Part shown: piece after piece, positions 1,549-42,388 of the stretch
Position numbering within the stretch: position 1 is the stretch's first letter
Layout of the letters: each line of letters begins with the position of its first letter
Assembly: GCA_028713655.1 (NCBI GenBank)
Contig: JAQTNW010000002.1
Coordinates: 14,627-78,626, forward strand
Direction of reading: 5' to 3'
Source of the DNA: Candidatus Methylacidiphilales bacterium
Lineage (GTDB): Bacteria; Verrucomicrobiota; Verrucomicrobiia; Methylacidiphilales; JAAUTS01
Length of the DNA: 64,000 bases
The notes under the pieces: generated by a model
The model's database searches: none
Seen by the model: the letters and a program-made list of their open reading frames with translations, nothing else
Told to the model about the DNA's origin: nothing
Program-made: the position numbers and the translations under genes

Positions 1549-1866
1549 CTTACAGGGCTTGGGGTTTTTGCATTCTTCGTATTCCTGGGGCGATGCCCCA
1601 GGCTGGTATAAATCCCGCGCTTTCAGCGCTCCACGAGTCCAGCAAACATCCGCGGTTAATAAATCCTTTGCGTGCTTTGTGCGAAATCCTAGTTCCCCCC
1701 TTATCAGACGGATGCACTTTGTTTAACCCTCGCGTCTCGCGTCTTTTGCCCCCTTGCTCGCGACGTATGTCGGAGTTTGCGTCTTGGCGTTAAATTCTCT
1801 TACGCATCCAAGTCGGGAGTGACAGTTCCGGGATGTCTGATACAATTCTCCCTCATAATGTCAGCA
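1549..1866. repeat. Direct repeat copy 2 (about 0.32 kb, promoter-bearing)
   Basis: Second copy of the 1-314 repeat. It fills nearly the whole gap between the secreted-protein gene and the DUF1638 gene and ends a few codons inside the latter. Between the first gene and this copy (1503-1548) there is only short unmatched sequence. Confidence 0.93.
1819..1846 (+). promoter_or_regulatory. Putative sigma70-type promoter of the DUF1638-RACo-AraC operon
   Basis: GTGACA (1819-1824) and TACAAT (1841-1846), 16-base spacer, identical to the copy at 265-292. It lies 11 bases before the ATG at 1858, again implying a nearly leaderless message; no Shine-Dalgarno sequence is seen between it and the start. 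Confidence 0.45.
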
Positions 1867-2607
1867 ACCCCCAGAATAGCCCTGCTTGCCTGCGCGGTGT
1901 TCGAACGCGAAATCGAACTGCATGCCGCAGGCGCATCCCACATCGCCGAGACACGTTTTTTCGAGGTCGGCTTGCACGACCGACCGGACAAACTCCGCGA
2001 AGCCTTGCAGGCCGCGCTGGATGAACTTGACGCCCGGAATGACATCGACGCCGTCGTGCTCGCCTACGGTCTTTGCGGCTGCGGCACGGCGGGCTTGCAA
2101 CCGCACCGTCACAAATTCGTGATTCCGCGCGCCCACGATTGCATCACGGTTTTCATGGGCAGCAAGGAACGCTACGCCGGGCAACAAAAGAGTTGTCCGA
2201 CTTGTTATTATTACACGCCCGGCTGGAACCGCGAGCGGCGCGTGCCCGGCCCCGACCGGCTCGAATCGCTCCGGACCGAGCTTTCCAAGCAGTTCGACGA
2301 GGACAACGTGGATTTCCTGCTCGAGTCCGAGCGCGAGCAATGGGCCCTGCATGACACGGCATTCTATCTCGACCTCGGCACCGATGACGCGGAGACCGAG
2401 GCGGAATACGCCCGCCGCTGCGCGGACTCGCTCGGCTGGAAATTTGAGCGCATGCGCGGCGATCCGGCGTTGCTGCGTGATTTGCTCTGGGGCAACTGGG
2501 ATTCCGAACGGTTTCAAATCATCGAACCGGGCTCGCGGCTTGCGAACTCCACCGACGCGAATGTCATGCGCGCCGAACCTGCTGACAAAAAAACAGACGC
2601 TCCATGA
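1858..2607 (+). CDS. DUF1638 domain protein, corrinoid methyl-transfer associated
   Basis: The 249-residue protein has the features of DUF1638: an opening IALLACAVFEREIE, a glycine/cysteine turn (LAYGLCGCGTAGL), the PRAHDCITVFMGSKERY block and a KSCPTCYYYTPGW segment. The function of the family is not established; from memory, members often sit beside corrinoid methyltransferase genes, as here. The cysteines could bind a metal or cluster. The start at 1858 is preferred over the longer frame from 1777 because it begins at the family's usual N-terminus and at the repeat boundary. Its stop overlaps the start of the RACo-like gene (ATGA), so the two are translationally coupled. Confidence 0.85.
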   Translation: MSATPRIALLACAVFEREIELHAAGASHIAETRFFEVGLHDRPDKLREALQAALDELDARNDIDAVVLAYGLCGCGTAGLQPHRHKFVIPRAHDCITVFMGSKERYAGQQKSCPTCYYYTPGWNRERRVPGPDRLESLRTELSKQFDEDNVDFLLESEREQWALHDTAFYLDLGTDDAETEAEYARRCADSLGWKFERMRGDPALLRDLLWGNWDSERFQIIEPGSRLANSTDANVMRAEPADKKTDAP

Positions 2608-4262
2608 GCAGCGGAACGCCGGTCATTATTGAATCCGAAGACGGAGCATCGCACGAGTTTGCCGTGTCCCCGCAGGCGGGCGGGCGTTCACTCGCGGATC
2701 TGCTGGCGGAACACGGCTTTCCATTGAACACCCGCTGCGGCCAGCGCGGGTTGTGCCGCGGCTGCGAAGTGCAGTTGCGCGAGGGAAAAGTGTCCATCGG
2801 CCAGGACGCGGCTTCCGCTCCCGCAACCATTCAAACATGCAAGGCGCGGATCACAGAGCGCGTCGTGATCCGGATACCGGCGCGTTCGAGGATCGAACAC
2901 CGGCCGCAGGTGATCGACACTTTCCGCATTGATGTCCCCTGCGCGCACCAGCCCTTGTTTGAGCCTGTCGCAGGCAAACGGGACACGGCCTTCGCCGTCG
3001 ATGTTGGAACGACAACCGTCGCCGTGCTGCTTGTGGATCTTGCAACGGGCGAGGTGCTCTCGCGGGCCGGCGGATTCAACGAGCAAATCCGCTTCGGCGA
3101 CAATGTCCTGACACGGATCGATGCCGCGCGTTCCCGGGACGCACTAACAGCCATGCAATCCGCCGTCGTCACCGGTACAATAGTTCCGCTCTTATTGCGG
3201 GCGTGCGAACGCGCCGGGCGCACACCCTCGCGGCTGGCTGGCGGGACCATCGCGGGCAATACGACCATGCTGCATCTTCTTATTGGCGAAGATCCCTCAT
3301 CGCTTGGAGTTGCGCCCTTCGTGCCTCGCTTTATCGAAGGCAAACGCCTGACAGCTTCCGGCATCGGCCTGGCCGCGGGCAAAAACGGGGACGCGCTTGC
3401 ACCGGACACACCGGTGCAGCTTTTGCCCGGAATCGCCGCCTACATTGGCGCGGACATCACCGCGGGCGTGTATGCAACCGGAATGATTTTTGACGAATTG
3501 CCGAGCCTGCTGGTCGATATCGGCACCAACGGCGAAATTGTGCTTCAAAGCAGCGGACGCCTAACGGCCTGCGCTACGGCCGCGGGACCCGCTTTTGAAG
3601 GCTCCGGGCTCCGCTGCGGGACCCGGGCGCGCGAGGGCGCCATCAGCGGAATCGACCTTGCTCTGAACCCATTCCGTGTCGATGCGGTAACGATTGGAAA
3701 TATTCCGCTTGCGCGCGCAGCCGGCATCTGCGGGTCGGCGTATATTGATTTTCTCTCTGTTGGGCGGCGCAGCGGACTGCTTCTTGAATCGGGGCGCTTC
3801 GATCCGGAAGTCTGGCAATGCATTCCCACCAGCCACCGGGTTGAGGCGGACGGCGAGCGCGCATTAAAAATCGCAGGGGCGAATGGCATAGGCGAACCGG
3901 TCATAAGCGAGGTGGACATCGCCGTGCTGTTGCAGGCGAAGGCTGCAATCGGAGCGGGCATCGAGACCCTGCTCAAGACGGCGCGAATCGAAGCCGGTGA
4001 TATTTCACGGGTCTATCTGGCCGGGGGGTTTGGGATGCATTTGAACGTTGGCCACGCCATCGCGGCGGGACTGCTGCCCGGTTTCCGGGAAGAACAGGTA
4101 CGCGTCGTGGGAAACACAGCGCTGGCCGGCGCATTGCTTGCGTTGCTGGACCGCACGACGCTCGACGAGATGGAAGCGTTGCGCGCGCAGGTGGATGTGT
4201 TGGAATTAAACCTTCAGGAAGGTTTCGAAGACCGCTTCGTCGATCACCTGATGCTTCCATGA
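2604..4262 (+). CDS. RACo-type reductive activator of corrinoid proteins
   Basis: This 552-residue protein has an N-terminal plant-type [2Fe-2S] ferredoxin domain with cysteines at 45, 51, 54 and 79 (C-X5-C-X2-C-Xn-C). A large ASKHA/DUF4445 domain follows, with nucleotide-binding loops such as DVGTTTVAV and LLVDIGTNGEIVL and a C-terminal LAGGFGMHLN motif. RACo-like proteins use ATP to drive electron transfer that returns inactive cob(II)alamin to cob(I)alamin on a corrinoid protein. Likely clients are the MtaC-type protein at 12832 and any corrinoid partners of the UroD homologues. The first residues overlap the DUF1638 stop and its own stop overlaps the next gene (ATGA), so this is a tight operon. 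The cytoplasmic location is inferred from the lack of a signal peptide. Confidence 0.9.
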   Translation: MSSGTPVIIESEDGASHEFAVSPQAGGRSLADLLAEHGFPLNTRCGQRGLCRGCEVQLREGKVSIGQDAASAPATIQTCKARITERVVIRIPARSRIEHRPQVIDTFRIDVPCAHQPLFEPVAGKRDTAFAVDVGTTTVAVLLVDLATGEVLSRAGGFNEQIRFGDNVLTRIDAARSRDALTAMQSAVVTGTIVPLLLRACERAGRTPSRLAGGTIAGNTTMLHLLIGEDPSSLGVAPFVPRFIEGKRLTASGIGLAAGKNGDALAPDTPVQLLPGIAAYIGADITAGVYATGMIFDELPSLLVDIGTNGEIVLQSSGRLTACATAAGPAFEGSGLRCGTRAREGAISGIDLALNPFRVDAVTIGNIPLARAAGICGSAYIDFLSVGRRSGLLLESGRFDPEVWQCIPTSHRVEADGERALKIAGANGIGEPVISEVDIAVLLQAKAAIGAGIETLLKTARIEAGDISRVYLAGGFGMHLNVGHAIAAGLLPGFREEQVRVVGNTALAGALLALLDRTTLDEMEALRAQVDVLELNLQEGFEDRFVDHLMLP

Positions 4263-8485: not shown

Positions 8486-8595
8486 GGGAAATGGAATGAG
8501 GATGGCAAAAGGATATCGAAAAGTGTGAAATATCCAGATTAATCCGCGGGCTAATTTTGAATTTTTATGCCAGATTTAGCATCACTGCATATTCC

Positions 8596-9148: not shown

Positions 9149-9162
9149 TTTGATCCGGATCA

Positions 9163-9416
9163 GCCCGGATGTTTCACACGCTTCTGCCCCCCCTGCAAAG
9201 TGTCTTGCTCCAAAGTGTGGCTGAAGCCGAGGGTGCGTTACATCCGAGTTACAAGCAAAACCGCCTAAATTGGCATTTTTTGATTTTTTGAATTGGAACC
9301 ATCTTATTTCGAGGCGGTTTTGCAAGAGCCTGCATATCTCCAGCGTGTGTCTTCCCGCTGTTGCCTAAGAGTGCTAAAAGGCTGATTATTAAAATGGGTA
9401 TGAAATATGCAGGCTA
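9163..9416. repeat. Triple-hairpin intergenic element, copy A
   Basis: Three inverted repeats lie in a row: CGGATG (9167-9171 region) with CATCCG (9241-9246); GCAAAACCGCCT (9255-9266) with AGGCGGTTTTGC (9312-9323); and AGCCTGCATAT (9327-9337) with ATATGCAGGCT (9405-9415). The same order and spacing occur at 40419-40677. The last arm supplies the TAG stop codon of the UroD gene at 9414. It may be a MITE-like or REP-like mobile element; no transposase is seen. Confidence 0.8.
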
Positions 9417-10424
9417 GCGCGCCAGAAACGGAATCGGCTCGCAAAGCGCGCGCAGATTTTCCTCCGGTGTGCCCGGTGGGATTTCGCAGCCGGCGTTGAC
9501 CATGCAGGGATTGCCGACCTGCGCGTAAATTTCCAGGGACTTTCGGCGAATGTCTTCAGGCGTCCCGCGCAGAACGGCATTGACCGGATCGAGGTTGCCG
9601 GCGAGGACCTTGCCCGGTCCGAGCGCTTCGCGCGCGTGGCGCATATCGACCATCCAGTCAATATCCACAATGTTCACTTCGAGCTGTTTGATGAACGGCA
9701 GCAGATGCGTGATGTTGCCGCAAATGTGCAGCCGCACGCAGGCGCCCATCGCGCGAATCGCGCTCACAAGCCGCTGCTCGCGGGGCCAGACCAGTTCGTG
9801 GTATAAATCCACCGACATCTGGCTGCAAATGGCATCACCGATCCCGATGGTGTCGGCGCCGCTCTCAATCTGGATGCGGGCAAAATCAATTGCCACCTCC
9901 ACGCAGAGGTCCATCAACTCGCCGCTCAACTCCGGTTCTTCGATCAGGTCGCATAGAAAATTTTCCATTCCGCGCAGATCACCGGCCTCGGCGGCCGGAC
10001 CTTCGACCCAGCCCATGATGGAATATTGACCGCCGACGCGCCGTTTGTATTCACGTACCGCGTCGATCCGGTCGCGCATGCGGGACGCGGTGAGCGGATC
10101 CGGTTTCTTGATGGAAGCCGGGTCGAGCGCTTCATCAAACGGCGGTCGTACGCAATGTGGCACACCGTTTTTTTCATAGATGATTTCCGCACCGAAGCCC
10201 TGCGTCTCGCGATACGGATCGGACATGGTGTTCATCTGGTCGATGCCGAACGCCTCCGCGCAACGAATGTTTGCTTCCACGAGTACGCGGTAATCCGACG
10301 CGAACGCCGCGTAATTCGAGCCGATATAGTCCGCTGCAAAGGCCATCAAGATTGGCAATCGCGGGACAATATCCACGTCGTGGTTTTCGATCATGCCTGT
10401 GTAACGCTCAAAAGGAGTCATCAT
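9414..10424 (-). CDS. UroD-family (MtaA-like) methyltransferase, paralogue 2
   Basis: The 336-residue protein is a UroD-type TIM barrel. Motif RLHICGNITHLL gives the H-X-C zinc-site pattern, and a conserved C-terminal NAGCEIPPGTPEENL supplies a further cysteine in the place expected for the third zinc ligand of MtaA-type enzymes. GNLDPV precedes it. It is therefore likely to be a zinc-dependent methyl-corrinoid methyltransferase and not a decarboxylase. It lies 11 bases downstream of the homocysteine methyltransferase gene on the same strand. This suggests that the two form a methyl relay ending in methionine, though the substrate is an inference. Confidence 0.87.
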   Translation of the reverse strand: MMTPFERYTGMIENHDVDIVPRLPILMAFAADYIGSNYAAFASDYRVLVEANIRCAEAFGIDQMNTMSDPYRETQGFGAEIIYEKNGVPHCVRPPFDEALDPASIKKPDPLTASRMRDRIDAVREYKRRVGGQYSIMGWVEGPAAEAGDLRGMENFLCDLIEEPELSGELMDLCVEVAIDFARIQIESGADTIGIGDAICSQMSVDLYHELVWPREQRLVSAIRAMGACVRLHICGNITHLLPFIKQLEVNIVDIDWMVDMRHAREALGPGKVLAGNLDPVNAVLRGTPEDIRRKSLEIYAQVGNPCMVNAGCEIPPGTPEENLRALCEPIPFLAR

Positions 10425-22512: not shown

Positions 22513-22573
22513 AGGGTGTGATGGTTATCCTGCTTGACCCCACACGTGTAAGGTCTTAGCGTCACCCTGTCAA
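22513..22573. promoter_or_regulatory. Shared divergent promoter region with candidate LacI operator
   Basis: The 61-base gap holds a perfect 8-base palindrome ACACGTGT at 22542-22549, and a loose outer dyad AGGGTG / CACCCT. LacI proteins bind such dyads, and the lacI-type gene starts 24 bases downstream. It also contains CCTGCTTGACCCCA (22529-22542), a 14-base phrase repeated at 40590-40603. Confidence 0.45.
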
Positions 22574-34254: not shown

Positions 34255-34273
34255 GGTTGAATTTTCATGGCAT

Positions 34274-34292
34274 GTGTGAGATAAGCAGGCTA
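34274..34292 (+). repeat. 19-base motif shared with the triple-hairpin element
   Basis: GTGTGAGATAAGCAGGCTA here is identical to 40658-40676, the last arm of the second triple-hairpin element, and the preceding 13 bases are also similar. It may be a trapped right end of the element or a shared binding site. It lies in the divergent promoter gap. Confidence 0.6.
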
Positions 34293-34358
34293 AGCTGAGA
34301 TTCACATACACGAGCCCAAAAGTCAAAGGCTGGTTGACATTCAGATCGCTAACGCTAA

Positions 34359-39721: not shown

Positions 39722-40372
39722 TTAACGCTGCGGCGCCTTTGTGGGCGCGGCAGACGCCGGAGCTGCGATCCAGCCTTGTTTCACGAAATAACTCTTCAAA
39801 AAGTCCGTCACCAGGCGGGCAATCCGCGCTGCGTCCTTGTCGAGGGCGGCATTTGGATTTTCTGCTTCCAACTTGAAAGCATACGGCTGGCCCGACGTGT
39901 CAAAAATCATCAGGCGCTCGGGATTTGTTTTATTATTAAGGGCCGCAAACTCCACATAAGCCTCGGAAGTGTGCTGTCCCGGGCCGTTTCCAAGTGAAAG
40001 GCTCAGGGCCTGGTTGGTTTCGTCCACTTTAAAGAGCCGTCCATCAATCAGCCAGAAATTGCCGGTTGGCAGCGGCAGATCCTTGCCATAGGGATAGGCG
40101 GGGAGAACTTCCCGGTTCAGCAATTCCACCAGCCGCCGGGTCACTGCGGTGCGGAGTTGTTCGCGAAACTGCACCAATTGGCCGCGTTTGCCTTCCATTT
40201 TGACCGTGGAGAGGTCCATATGAAAATCATAAACATAAATGGCGTCGGGACGGATGTTTGCGGCGGCAACCGTGGGCGGCGGCGGCTGGGGTTTGTTCCC
40301 CACACCGGTGGAGGCACAGCCGGCCAAAACCACAAGAACGCCGGCCCAAAGAACGGGAATGGGAAAACGCAT
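39722..40372 (-). CDS. Lipoprotein of unknown function
   Basis: The 216-residue protein has a lipobox LAGC near residue 19 after a hydrophobic signal (VLWAGVLVVLAGC), then a proline-rich stretch (PQPPPPTVA). The remainder has IRPDAIYVYDFHMDLSTVKM, a phrase found in DUF4410-like lipoproteins. It ends 21 bases upstream of the STT3-like pair in the same direction, so it may be in their operon. It is likely anchored in the inner or outer membrane. Confidence 0.75.
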   Translation of the reverse strand: MRFPIPVLWAGVLVVLAGCASTGVGNKPQPPPPTVAAANIRPDAIYVYDFHMDLSTVKMEGKRGQLVQFREQLRTAVTRRLVELLNREVLPAYPYGKDLPLPTGNFWLIDGRLFKVDETNQALSLSLGNGPGQHTSEAYVEFAALNNKTNPERLMIFDTSGQPYAFKLEAENPNAALDKDAARIARLVTDFLKSYFVKQGWIAAPASAAPTKAPQR

Positions 40373-40418
40373 AGTGGGGAAGTTTATGGATTCCTGTCCT
40401 GCGAGTAAAGAGTGATTC

Positions 40419-40677
40419 TAACCCGGATGTCTTTCGCACGCACCTACTTCTGAAAAGCCTGCAGTGCGTATAGGCGAAAGAGCGGCCAGAAATATGGGGT
40501 GCATCACCATCCGGGTTAAAAACAAAACCGCCTGAATGAGAATTTTTTTGAAAATAGAAGGGCCTTATTTTGAGGCGGTTTTGGAGTAGCCTGCTTGACC
40601 CCAAGCACATTCTCTTCTGCCTGCATAACAGCGCCAAGGGGAGATTTTCCATGACGGGTGTGAGATAAGCAGGCTAC
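40419..40677. repeat. Triple-hairpin intergenic element, copy B
   Basis: Three inverted repeats: TAACCCGGATG (40419-40429) with CATCCGGGTTA (40508-40518); CAAAACCGCCT (40523-40533) with AGGCGGTTTTG (40573-40583); GTAGCCTGCTT (40586-40596) with AAGCAGGCTAC (40667-40677). All are perfect. Same order as copy A at 9163-9416. It fills most of the 378-base gap in front of the hybrid kinase gene; nothing else is seen in that gap. Confidence 0.85.
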
Positions 40678-40750: not shown

Positions 40751-42388
40751 ATGAATCGGGACGTCATGATAACAGCCATGCGGGAGGTGCTGCAATCCAT
40801 CCAGGCCAGGAAATCCCTGGCGGATGTGCTGCAGGAAATTCTCAAGTGGGCCTGCCAGCTCACCAACAGCATCCATGGCTCATTTGTCACCGTGGACCAT
40901 GAACGCGGCGTACTATTGATCACCAGCACACATGGGCCGGACTGGACCCCCGAGAAGAAAAGCCACACCATGAAAATCGGCGAGGGAATCACCGGCCTTG
41001 TCGCGGCGACAGGCAAACCTTATCTTTGCTCCGACACCACGCTCGATCCTCTTTACGTAAGCCTGTTTGATTTTGTCGAAAGCGAGCTGGCGGTGCCCGT
41101 CATCGCCCAGAACAAGGTCTGGGGCATCATCAATTTCGACGGGCGAAAAAAACACGAGTTCAACGAAACCACGGTTTCGGACATGGAATTATTCGCCCAA
41201 CTGACTGCTGCCGCTATTGATATTCATCTGAGCTGGAGCCGGGAACAGCGCCTCCAACAGGAGCTGATGCAGGCGGAAAAATTGTCCTCGTTCAGCAAAA
41301 TGCTTTCCGGGTTTGCGCATGAGATCAATAATCCGCTTGCCGCCATTCTGGGTGGCGCTTCTGTCCTGGCCTATGACAGCCCTGATTCCGGGCAGCGGCA
41401 GGAACTGGAGGCCATTGCCGCCGAAGCGCAGCGGGCCGCGACGCTGGTAAAAAATCTCCTGGCCTTTTCCCGGCGGCAAACCGCCAAAAAGGAGGTCCGG
41501 GACATCAATGTGCTGGTGCAGGACGCATGCGCTCTCGCCTGGCATCAACTCAAACAAAAGGGCATCAGCCTGGTTGTGTCGCTGTCTGAAAAGCCGCCCC
41601 ATGCGGAAGTCCAGCCGCTGCAAATCCAGCAGGTGCTCTTGAACCTTTTCAGCAATGCGGAAAGCGCCATCGCGGAAGAAGGCCGTCCCGACGGCGAGAT
41701 CCGGGTGGCAGTCAGCGAAGAAAATGGAGAGGTGTTGATTGAGGTGGCGGACAACGGCGTTGGCATGGAATCCGAAACAAGACGTTCGATCTACGACCCG
41801 TTTTTCACCACCCGCGATGTCGGCAAAGGCGCCGGACTTGGCCTGTCGATTGCGCACGACATCCTGAGCTTCCATGGAGGCAGCATCACCTGCAAAAGCG
41901 GATTGCATGCGGGATCGATATTTTACATCCGACTGCCCGCGAGCCGGATGCAACCGGAAGCGGCTTCTGTGATCCCACCCCCGGCGACCTCGAAAAAAAG
42001 CAAAATACAGCGTCCGGCCATAACCATGCGGGTTCTGGTTGTGGACGATGAAGACCAGATTCGGACCGCTCTGGAACGCTTTCTAAGTTCCAAAGGATTT
42101 CACGTCGAGACAGCCGTCGATGGAATGGCGGCTCATTCCCTGGCCCATGAGCAGGATTTTGACGTGGTGTTAAGCGACATCCGGATGCCGCGAATGGATG
42201 GATTTGAGTTGTATCGGGCGTTGAACGAGATCAACGAGTTGTACGGCAGGCGCTTTGTTTTTATGACGGGGAACCTTATTACGTCAGAGACCCATGAATT
42301 TATCCAAAACACCAAGTGTCCGTGCATTGAGAAACCGTTTCAATTCGATGTGATTTTCAAAACCCTTTTGGAACAGTCGTGCGTGTGA
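40751..42388 (+). CDS. GAF-domain hybrid histidine kinase with receiver
   Basis: The 545-residue protein has a GAF sensor domain (about 1-160; ITGLVAATGKPYLCSD), a HisKA/HATPase module, and a receiver. His190 in FAHEINNPL is the phosphorylation site. N-box NLFSNAESAI, DNGVGM and GKGAGLGLSIAHD form the ATP site. The receiver begins MRVLVVDDEDQIR and Asp476 in LSDIRMP is the acceptor. No membrane span, so it is a cytoplasmic sensor. No output regulator lies beside it. Confidence 0.9.
   Translation: MNRDVMITAMREVLQSIQARKSLADVLQEILKWACQLTNSIHGSFVTVDHERGVLLITSTHGPDWTPEKKSHTMKIGEGITGLVAATGKPYLCSDTTLDPLYVSLFDFVESELAVPVIAQNKVWGIINFDGRKKHEFNETTVSDMELFAQLTAAAIDIHLSWSREQRLQQELMQAEKLSSFSKMLSGFAHEINNPLAAILGGASVLAYDSPDSGQRQELEAIAAEAQRAATLVKNLLAFSRRQTAKKEVRDINVLVQDACALAWHQLKQKGISLVVSLSEKPPHAEVQPLQIQQVLLNLFSNAESAIAEEGRPDGEIRVAVSEENGEVLIEVADNGVGMESETRRSIYDPFFTTRDVGKGAGLGLSIAHDILSFHGGSITCKSGLHAGSIFYIRLPASRMQPEAASVIPPPATSKKSKIQRPAITMRVLVVDDEDQIRTALERFLSSKGFHVETAVDGMAAHSLAHEQDFDVVLSDIRMPRMDGFELYRALNEINELYGRRFVFMTGNLITSETHEFIQNTKCPCIEKPFQFDVIFKTLLEQSCV

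Follow-up and report, generated by a model that had tools for sequence, protein, structure and literature searches.

The stretch of DNA analysed here, 64,000 nucleotides from a Candidatus Methylacidiphilales bacterium and referred to below as the window, carries three inverted repeats in the same order at two places (positions 9163-9416 and 40419-40677), which raises the question of whether such a unit is a mobile element or an RNA held in shape by base pairing. The initial annotation had described both copies and had considered a REP- or MITE-like family as well as a three-stem RNA, naming the absence of further copies and of base-pair covariation as what would speak against it; further copies and covariation were both found. 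The unit is a new, hairpin-ended MITE with a three-hairpin plan, probably driven by IS1380. The literature searched, largely from outside the subscription journals, contained no earlier description of an IS1380 MITE. The parts of the two copies and their neighbours are as follows (window positions, with strand where one applies).

9160-9163: left target duplication of copy 1, TCAG, a decayed YTAR, assigned from the sequence and the family-wide YTAR flanks
9164-9413, plus strand: body of copy 1, a three-hairpin MITE of 250 bp
9164-9173, plus strand: outer arm of hairpin A of copy 1, equal to the left terminal repeat, CCCGGATGTT
9241-9248, plus strand: inner arm of hairpin A of copy 1, CATCCGAG (family consensus CATCCGGG), followed by TTAC at 9249-9252
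9256-9322, plus strand: central hairpin M of copy 1, from folding, with arms CAAAACCGCCT (9256-9266) and AGGCGGTTTTG (9312-9322)
9329-9337, plus strand: inner arm of hairpin B of copy 1, CCTGCATAT
9405-9413, plus strand: outer arm of hairpin B of copy 1, equal to the right terminal repeat, ATATGCAGG
9414-9417: right target duplication of copy 1, CTAG, in which the URO-D gene on the minus strand has its TAG stop
9414-10424, minus strand: full-length gene for URO-D (PF01208), whose 3' end lies within the CTAG duplication of copy 1
34259-34293, plus strand: probable decayed right end of a further copy, upstream of a minus-strand gene, weak by profile
40418-40421: left target duplication of copy 2, CTAA
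40422-40673, plus strand: body of copy 2, 252 bp, older and diverged
40508-40515, plus strand: inner arm of hairpin A of copy 2, CATCCGGG
40523-40583, plus strand: central hairpin M of copy 2, with arms at 40523-40533 and 40573-40583
40590-40596, plus strand: inner arm of hairpin B of copy 2, CCTGCTT, with its partner AAGCAGG at 40667-40673
40674-40677: right target duplication of copy 2, CTAC, decayed from CTAA

Copy 2 is located between two divergent genes, a DUF4410-like gene (39722-40372, minus strand) and a histidine kinase/response regulator gene (40751-42388, plus strand), and its hairpin B differs from that of copy 1 by a compensatory A-T to T-A change. A partial copy had been suspected at 34274-34292, and this appears plausible: 34 nt there are 85% identical to the end of copy 2, and the site matches the terminal repeat with one mismatch and adjoins a YTAR, although the family profile alone gives E = 0.64, which is not significant. 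Conversely, the text thought to be shared at 22529-22542 yielded no family-profile match up to E = 10 and is not supported. A lone terminal-repeat-like match (TTAATCTGGATATTTCA, one mismatch) at 8526-8542, ~620 bp to the left of copy 1, is a possible remnant of another MITE.

In the 3.29 Mb genome from which the window derives (90 contigs), a DNA search with copy 1 as query returned at least 50 matching pieces (best other E = 2.5e-64), a lower bound because 40 of the 118 first-look candidates were scored. The terminal pattern YTARCCYGSATRTTTCA was matched 138 times at up to one mismatch, compared with no match for the reversed-pattern control. Among the loci read, 42 copies possess both ends, 31 of them long (~257 bp, with three hairpins) and 11 short, alongside one-ended fragments (19 left-end and 21 right-end) and two internal fragments. 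Both element ends carry the terminal inverted repeat CCYGSATRTTTCA, flanked by 4-bp target duplications of the form YTAR. Given its multiple dispersed copies, terminal inverted repeats and target duplications, the element is a MITE; at ~250 bp, it is too short for a transposase gene and contains none.

The outer repeats are CCCGGATGTTTCAC on the left (A) and CCTGCATATTTCAY on the right (B), and the first 8-10 bases of each recur in inverted orientation ~65-80 bases inward; it is these inverted inner copies of the terminal repeats that give rise to hairpins A and B. Hairpin M sits between them (CAAAACCGCCT..AGGCGGTTTTG, also written as AAAACCGCC..GGCGGTTTT), with an A+T-rich loop of 39-47 bases. 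RNAalifold, applied to the 31 full-length copies, independently recovered the same three stems, in agreement with the order of inverted repeats noted originally in the two window copies. The short form lacks M and has a fixed junction, TTAC-ATAG. It does not represent a single lineage, as a tree of A+B sequences mixes short with long copies and one particular A+B sequence is found in a form with M as well as in a form lacking it; exchange between copies would be our guess as to the origin of this intermixing.

Independent mobility of the parts was considered and rejected. As regards A and B as separate ~90-bp transposons, exact duplications were absent from solo A and present in one solo B, and since solo ends mostly lack exact duplications, an origin of the element by fusion of A and B would be a guess. 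As regards M, the hairpin was found in 32 places, which lie within element copies where checked. Individual copies have been remodelled: in one (L017, G000:C9:50998-51328), GGTGCAGGAACTGG in hairpin A has undergone tandem expansion, yielding a minisatellite inside the MITE, and in another (L096:2407-2584) a reversed B is joined straight to A, both being old.

The target duplications are clearest in young copies. Exact duplications were observed in 25 of the 35 copies with YTAR on both sides, where 10.2 would be expected for independent ends, and in 20 of 23 young copies. Neighbouring copies have one YTAR in common, as expected when one copy inserts into the target duplication of another. In old copies alone, exact duplications (5/19) are no commoner than chance, while TA itself is mostly intact, and a 2-bp TA duplication therefore fits these copies equally well. 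This would allow for a reading in which only TA is duplicated in old copies, the adjoining R and Y being part of the element and co-evolving with the inner arm. Such a reading appears unlikely to us, as it is at odds with the four exact bases in those 20 young copies, in 11 of 11 related elements examined in another family of the class (G454 and G469, described below) and in the intact IS1380 elements examined, and with an AGAG-to-CTAG swap in three of the same G454/G469 copies that resembles a templated multi-base change.

The ends of the element lead to a likely mobiliser. An intact IS1380-family insertion sequence from a same-class genome (L168:555-2132; 1,578 bp including duplications, with CTAG on both sides) encodes a 453-aa protein with a PF13701 transposase domain (E = 1.8e-167). 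Its left and right repeats, CCCGGATATTTCAC and CCCGCATATTTCAT, each match 13 of 14 bases of the A and B ends of the MITE, respectively, and because each matches its own end, the left/right difference (GGAT/GCAT) is common to both elements. Inner arms are absent from this insertion sequence, and the two are alike in their ends only, with unrelated subterminal DNA, so the MITE did not arise from it by simple deletion. Intact 1.7-kb IS1380 elements with YTAR duplications and related repeats were identified in same-order genomes, where they sometimes directly adjoin ~186-bp MITEs. At L118, L119 and L126 (G032, G041), IS1380 copies abut MITEs or their relics with one common YTAR, indicative of insertion into each other's target duplication. 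The MITE's own genome contains one truncated IS1380 relic (C46:23552-23989), with CTAACCCGGAAAACTCAC upstream and remnants of A and M after it. No intact IS1380 was found in this assembly, where one may be missing because of its division into 90 contigs, and no insertion sequence with exactly the repeats of this MITE was found in any genome examined, the nearest differing by one base per end. A search for an autonomous insertion sequence beside single terminal repeats in same-order genomes, by eye at 16 places, gave no transposase among the open frames. On this comparison of ends and duplications, the IS1380 family is the likely mobiliser, and its transposase would move the MITE in trans.

It is thus very probable that the MITE is cut and pasted in trans by an IS1380 transposase with duplication of YTAR, that its arms are homogenised after insertion and that insertions at stop codons are tolerated. 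In the proposed sequence of events, an IS1380-family DDE transposase, a relative of piggyBac, would recognise the terminal repeats CCCGGATGTTTCAC and CCTGCATATTTCAY and insert the MITE at YTAR, whereby those four bases are predicted to be duplicated. Hairpin ends A and B may fold from the terminal repeats and their inverted inner copies, and after insertion template-switch copying would keep the hairpin arms alike and run on into the flanking target base. An insertion into the YTAR of a stop codon would restore the stop and could be retained as harmless.

The covariation between arms would be a record of such copying. In the three stems, 97.6% of arm cells are paired, compared with 24-43% when the structure is slid by one to three columns, which bears out the description of conserved arms with diverged loops. 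Double-sided changes affect 8 pairs and 30 cells, against 3.2 and 8.9 in shuffles and 1-2 pairs in slid structures. The two most-changed pairs consist of an inner arm base and the target base adjoining the element. At the A end, the outer/inner combinations are A:T 33, G:C 13, G:T 8 and A:C 0 (p = 1.8e-7), and at the B end the inner/outer combinations are G:C 34, A:T 14, A:C 3 and G:T 2 (p = 3e-8), p-values which are optimistic because the copies have common ancestry. The outer partner in these pairs is host DNA, namely the target duplication, and since the copied tract thus includes host-derived bases, the change in the arms must post-date insertion. In young copies, the association between outer and inner bases is all but absent at A (14/21, p = 0.38) and weak at B (p = 0.009), whereas in old copies, including fragments, the two bases match in 32 of 33 and 29 of 31 cases. 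Where the left and right duplications are unequal, the inner arm matches the one adjoining the element 15 times and the far one once (p = 0.0005). Furthermore, in 3 of the 11 G454/G469 copies the inner flank is CTAG instead of AGAG, in agreement with the outer CTAG; the one from G469 additionally has a perfectly matching inner arm.

Homogenisation of the DNA arms after insertion probably explains this covariation better than selection on an RNA. Template switching is known to homogenise the arms of inverted repeats across several adjacent bases (PMC8604942), and selection on RNA need not be invoked because template switching between arms accounts for the covariation. The MITE resembles such template-switch, or quasipalindrome, cases in that the arms grow alike and several adjacent bases change together (PMC8604942, PMC7202029), and differs from them in that the copied tract takes in the host-derived target duplication.

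Two other explanations of the arms have to be weighed against template-switch homogenisation. A three-stem structured RNA, or a terminator RNA, kept by selection for base pairing would account for three conserved stems with compensatory changes, for the better folding of M than of shuffled sequences (z = -3.0, with A and B weakly better) and for the recurrence of the same plan with different loops in another family of the class. Its most variable pairs, however, include the target duplication, which is not borne by the element, and pairing is weak at young A ends (14/21) and nearly complete in old copies, even in those with one end, so that the three-stem RNA of the initial annotation is upheld as regards covarying stems and not as regards what the covariation reflects. 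Moreover, no Rfam match reached the gathering score, no promoter-like site or intrinsic terminator was called at M (in a scan for which the M loop is too long), copies were found in every gene orientation, and transposition already accounts for copy number and ends. We therefore regard the RNA as very unlikely. Marginally less probable still is a guiding role of the inner arm, in which its base would pair with the target so that only complementary YTAR sites are used. At the A end, an inner C is never found with an outer A (0/13), and an inner T is found with both A and G, as wobble would permit; yet three near-identical young copies (L005, L006 and L011) occupy CTAG, TTAG and TTAA, the association is absent at young A ends (p = 0.38), the intact insertion sequence uses YTAR without inner arms, and guiding would not produce the agreement with the element-adjoining base seen where duplications differ. 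Under the homogenisation favoured here, the MITE represents a natural example of paired arms that covary without the need for an RNA, and because the outer partner is host DNA gained at insertion, a search for RNAs among repeats can be misled if it relies on covariation alone.

The REP-like alternative of the initial annotation, in which a REP/BIME-type palindrome family is moved by a RAYT tyrosine transposase, is hardly credible. The genome does contain four Y1_Tnp (RAYT-like) genes, and GTAG lies beside the palindrome in some inner arms. REPs are palindromes of 20-40 bp tagged with GTAG or CGTC (PMC3733652), and although they share with the MITE their nature as dispersed intergenic palindromes, the latter is about ten times longer, with other termini and another transposase class; its length, asymmetric terminal repeats, 4-bp YTAR duplications and matching IS1380 do not fit a RAYT-driven family. 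The MITE-like half of that proposal is confirmed by the many genomic copies, the terminal inverted repeats, the 4-bp duplications and the insertion sequence with matching ends. Elsewhere in the window, two direct repeats of ~300 bp (1-297 and 1549-1851; 97-100% identical, 1.55 kb apart) carry REP-like palindromes, CCTGGGGCGATGCCCCAGG and GCGCTTTCAGCGC.

As regards known systems, IS1380 elements (PF13701, relatives of the piggyBac superfamily) share with the MITE their terminal repeats, left/right asymmetry and 4-bp YTAR duplication; the MITE differs in having no transposase gene, no common internal DNA, and inverted inner copies of its ends plus a central hairpin. The target of piggyBac is TTAA and, rarely, TTAG or CTAA (PMC10813416). 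Chunjie, a MITE of Geobacter uraniireducens, measures 178-235 bp and is present in 38 full and 57 partial copies (PMC10969869). Bacterial MITEs of this type resemble ours in their size and copy number, in having terminal repeats and duplications, in lying between genes and in the many partial copies, while in ours each end forms its own hairpin, a third hairpin lies between them and the duplications often fall at stop codons.

Among 388 phylum genomes, the A-end pattern was restricted to the MITE's own, and a broader end pattern was present in 41 of 286 class genomes. Two genomes from one other family of the class, G454 and G469, contain ~231-bp elements built on the same three-hairpin plan with unrelated loops, in the order B-type hairpin, central GGAAAACCGCGC..GCGCGGTTTTCC stem and A-type hairpin; G469 harbours at least 40 good copies, and exact YTAR duplications were present in 11 of the 11 G454/G469 copies examined. 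Other hairpin-ended versions were encountered in G463, G455 and G540, pointing to a class-wide set of hairpin-ended mini-transposons tied to IS1380. Another genome of the class (G561, ~1.6 Mb) bears an extreme load, with 300 exact matches to the terminal pattern, which, where read, are ~185-189-bp palindromic MITEs. A GTDB-wide scan with CCCGGATGTTTCANNCGCTTC returned five loci, chance-like except for one terminal-repeat-like end.

The AAAACCGC core common to these families could reflect descent or convergence on a terminator-like stem. M resembles a two-way terminator stem, and from its sequence our guess would be that it may act as a terminator; as an ordinary short-loop terminator of its own genome it was rejected, with two such stems in that genome. 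Because the stems (the AAAACCGC..GCGGTTTT core and the hairpin ends) are alike in at least two families whose loops are unrelated, selection on the three-hairpin plan itself may be proposed, in which the transposase or host acts on folded single-stranded ends, the core is a two-way terminator insulator and the duplications restore stops. If so, the core would insulate neighbouring genes while the duplications give them back their stop codons; we hold this to be improbable, somewhat more so than a TA-only duplication.

Read on either strand, YTAR gives TAA or TAG, and a neighbouring gene ends in the duplication at 15 of the 42 two-ended copies. With gene calls that are approximate, from a simple codon-usage script, the background share of stops among usable YTAR sites (at a stop or intergenic) was 16/107 in the window (p = 0.007) and 37/395 over all loci (p = 1.7e-5). 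None of the 42 copies lies inside a gene, compared with 40% of YTAR sites. Ten genes that end at an element, among them those for RNase III, an aminotransferase, a pterin-binding enzyme, QPRTase and a potassium transporter, encode Pfam domains that are complete right through to the gene end. The same holds for the URO-D gene at 9414-10424; as originally remarked, its TAG stop derives from the element site, with the correction that it is contributed by the CTAG target duplication and not by the arm proper. Since YTAR reads as a stop on both strands and the stop is regenerated, insertions at stop codons would be harmless and kept, and we read the excess as harmless insertions that survived; the transposase may also favour gene ends. 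A target that is a stop codon on both strands thus lets a transposon settle at gene ends with the protein undamaged. The URO-D gene itself lies close to DUF1638 and RACo-like genes (1777-4262 and 9414-10424), an arrangement comparable to corrinoid-dependent methyltransferase clusters.
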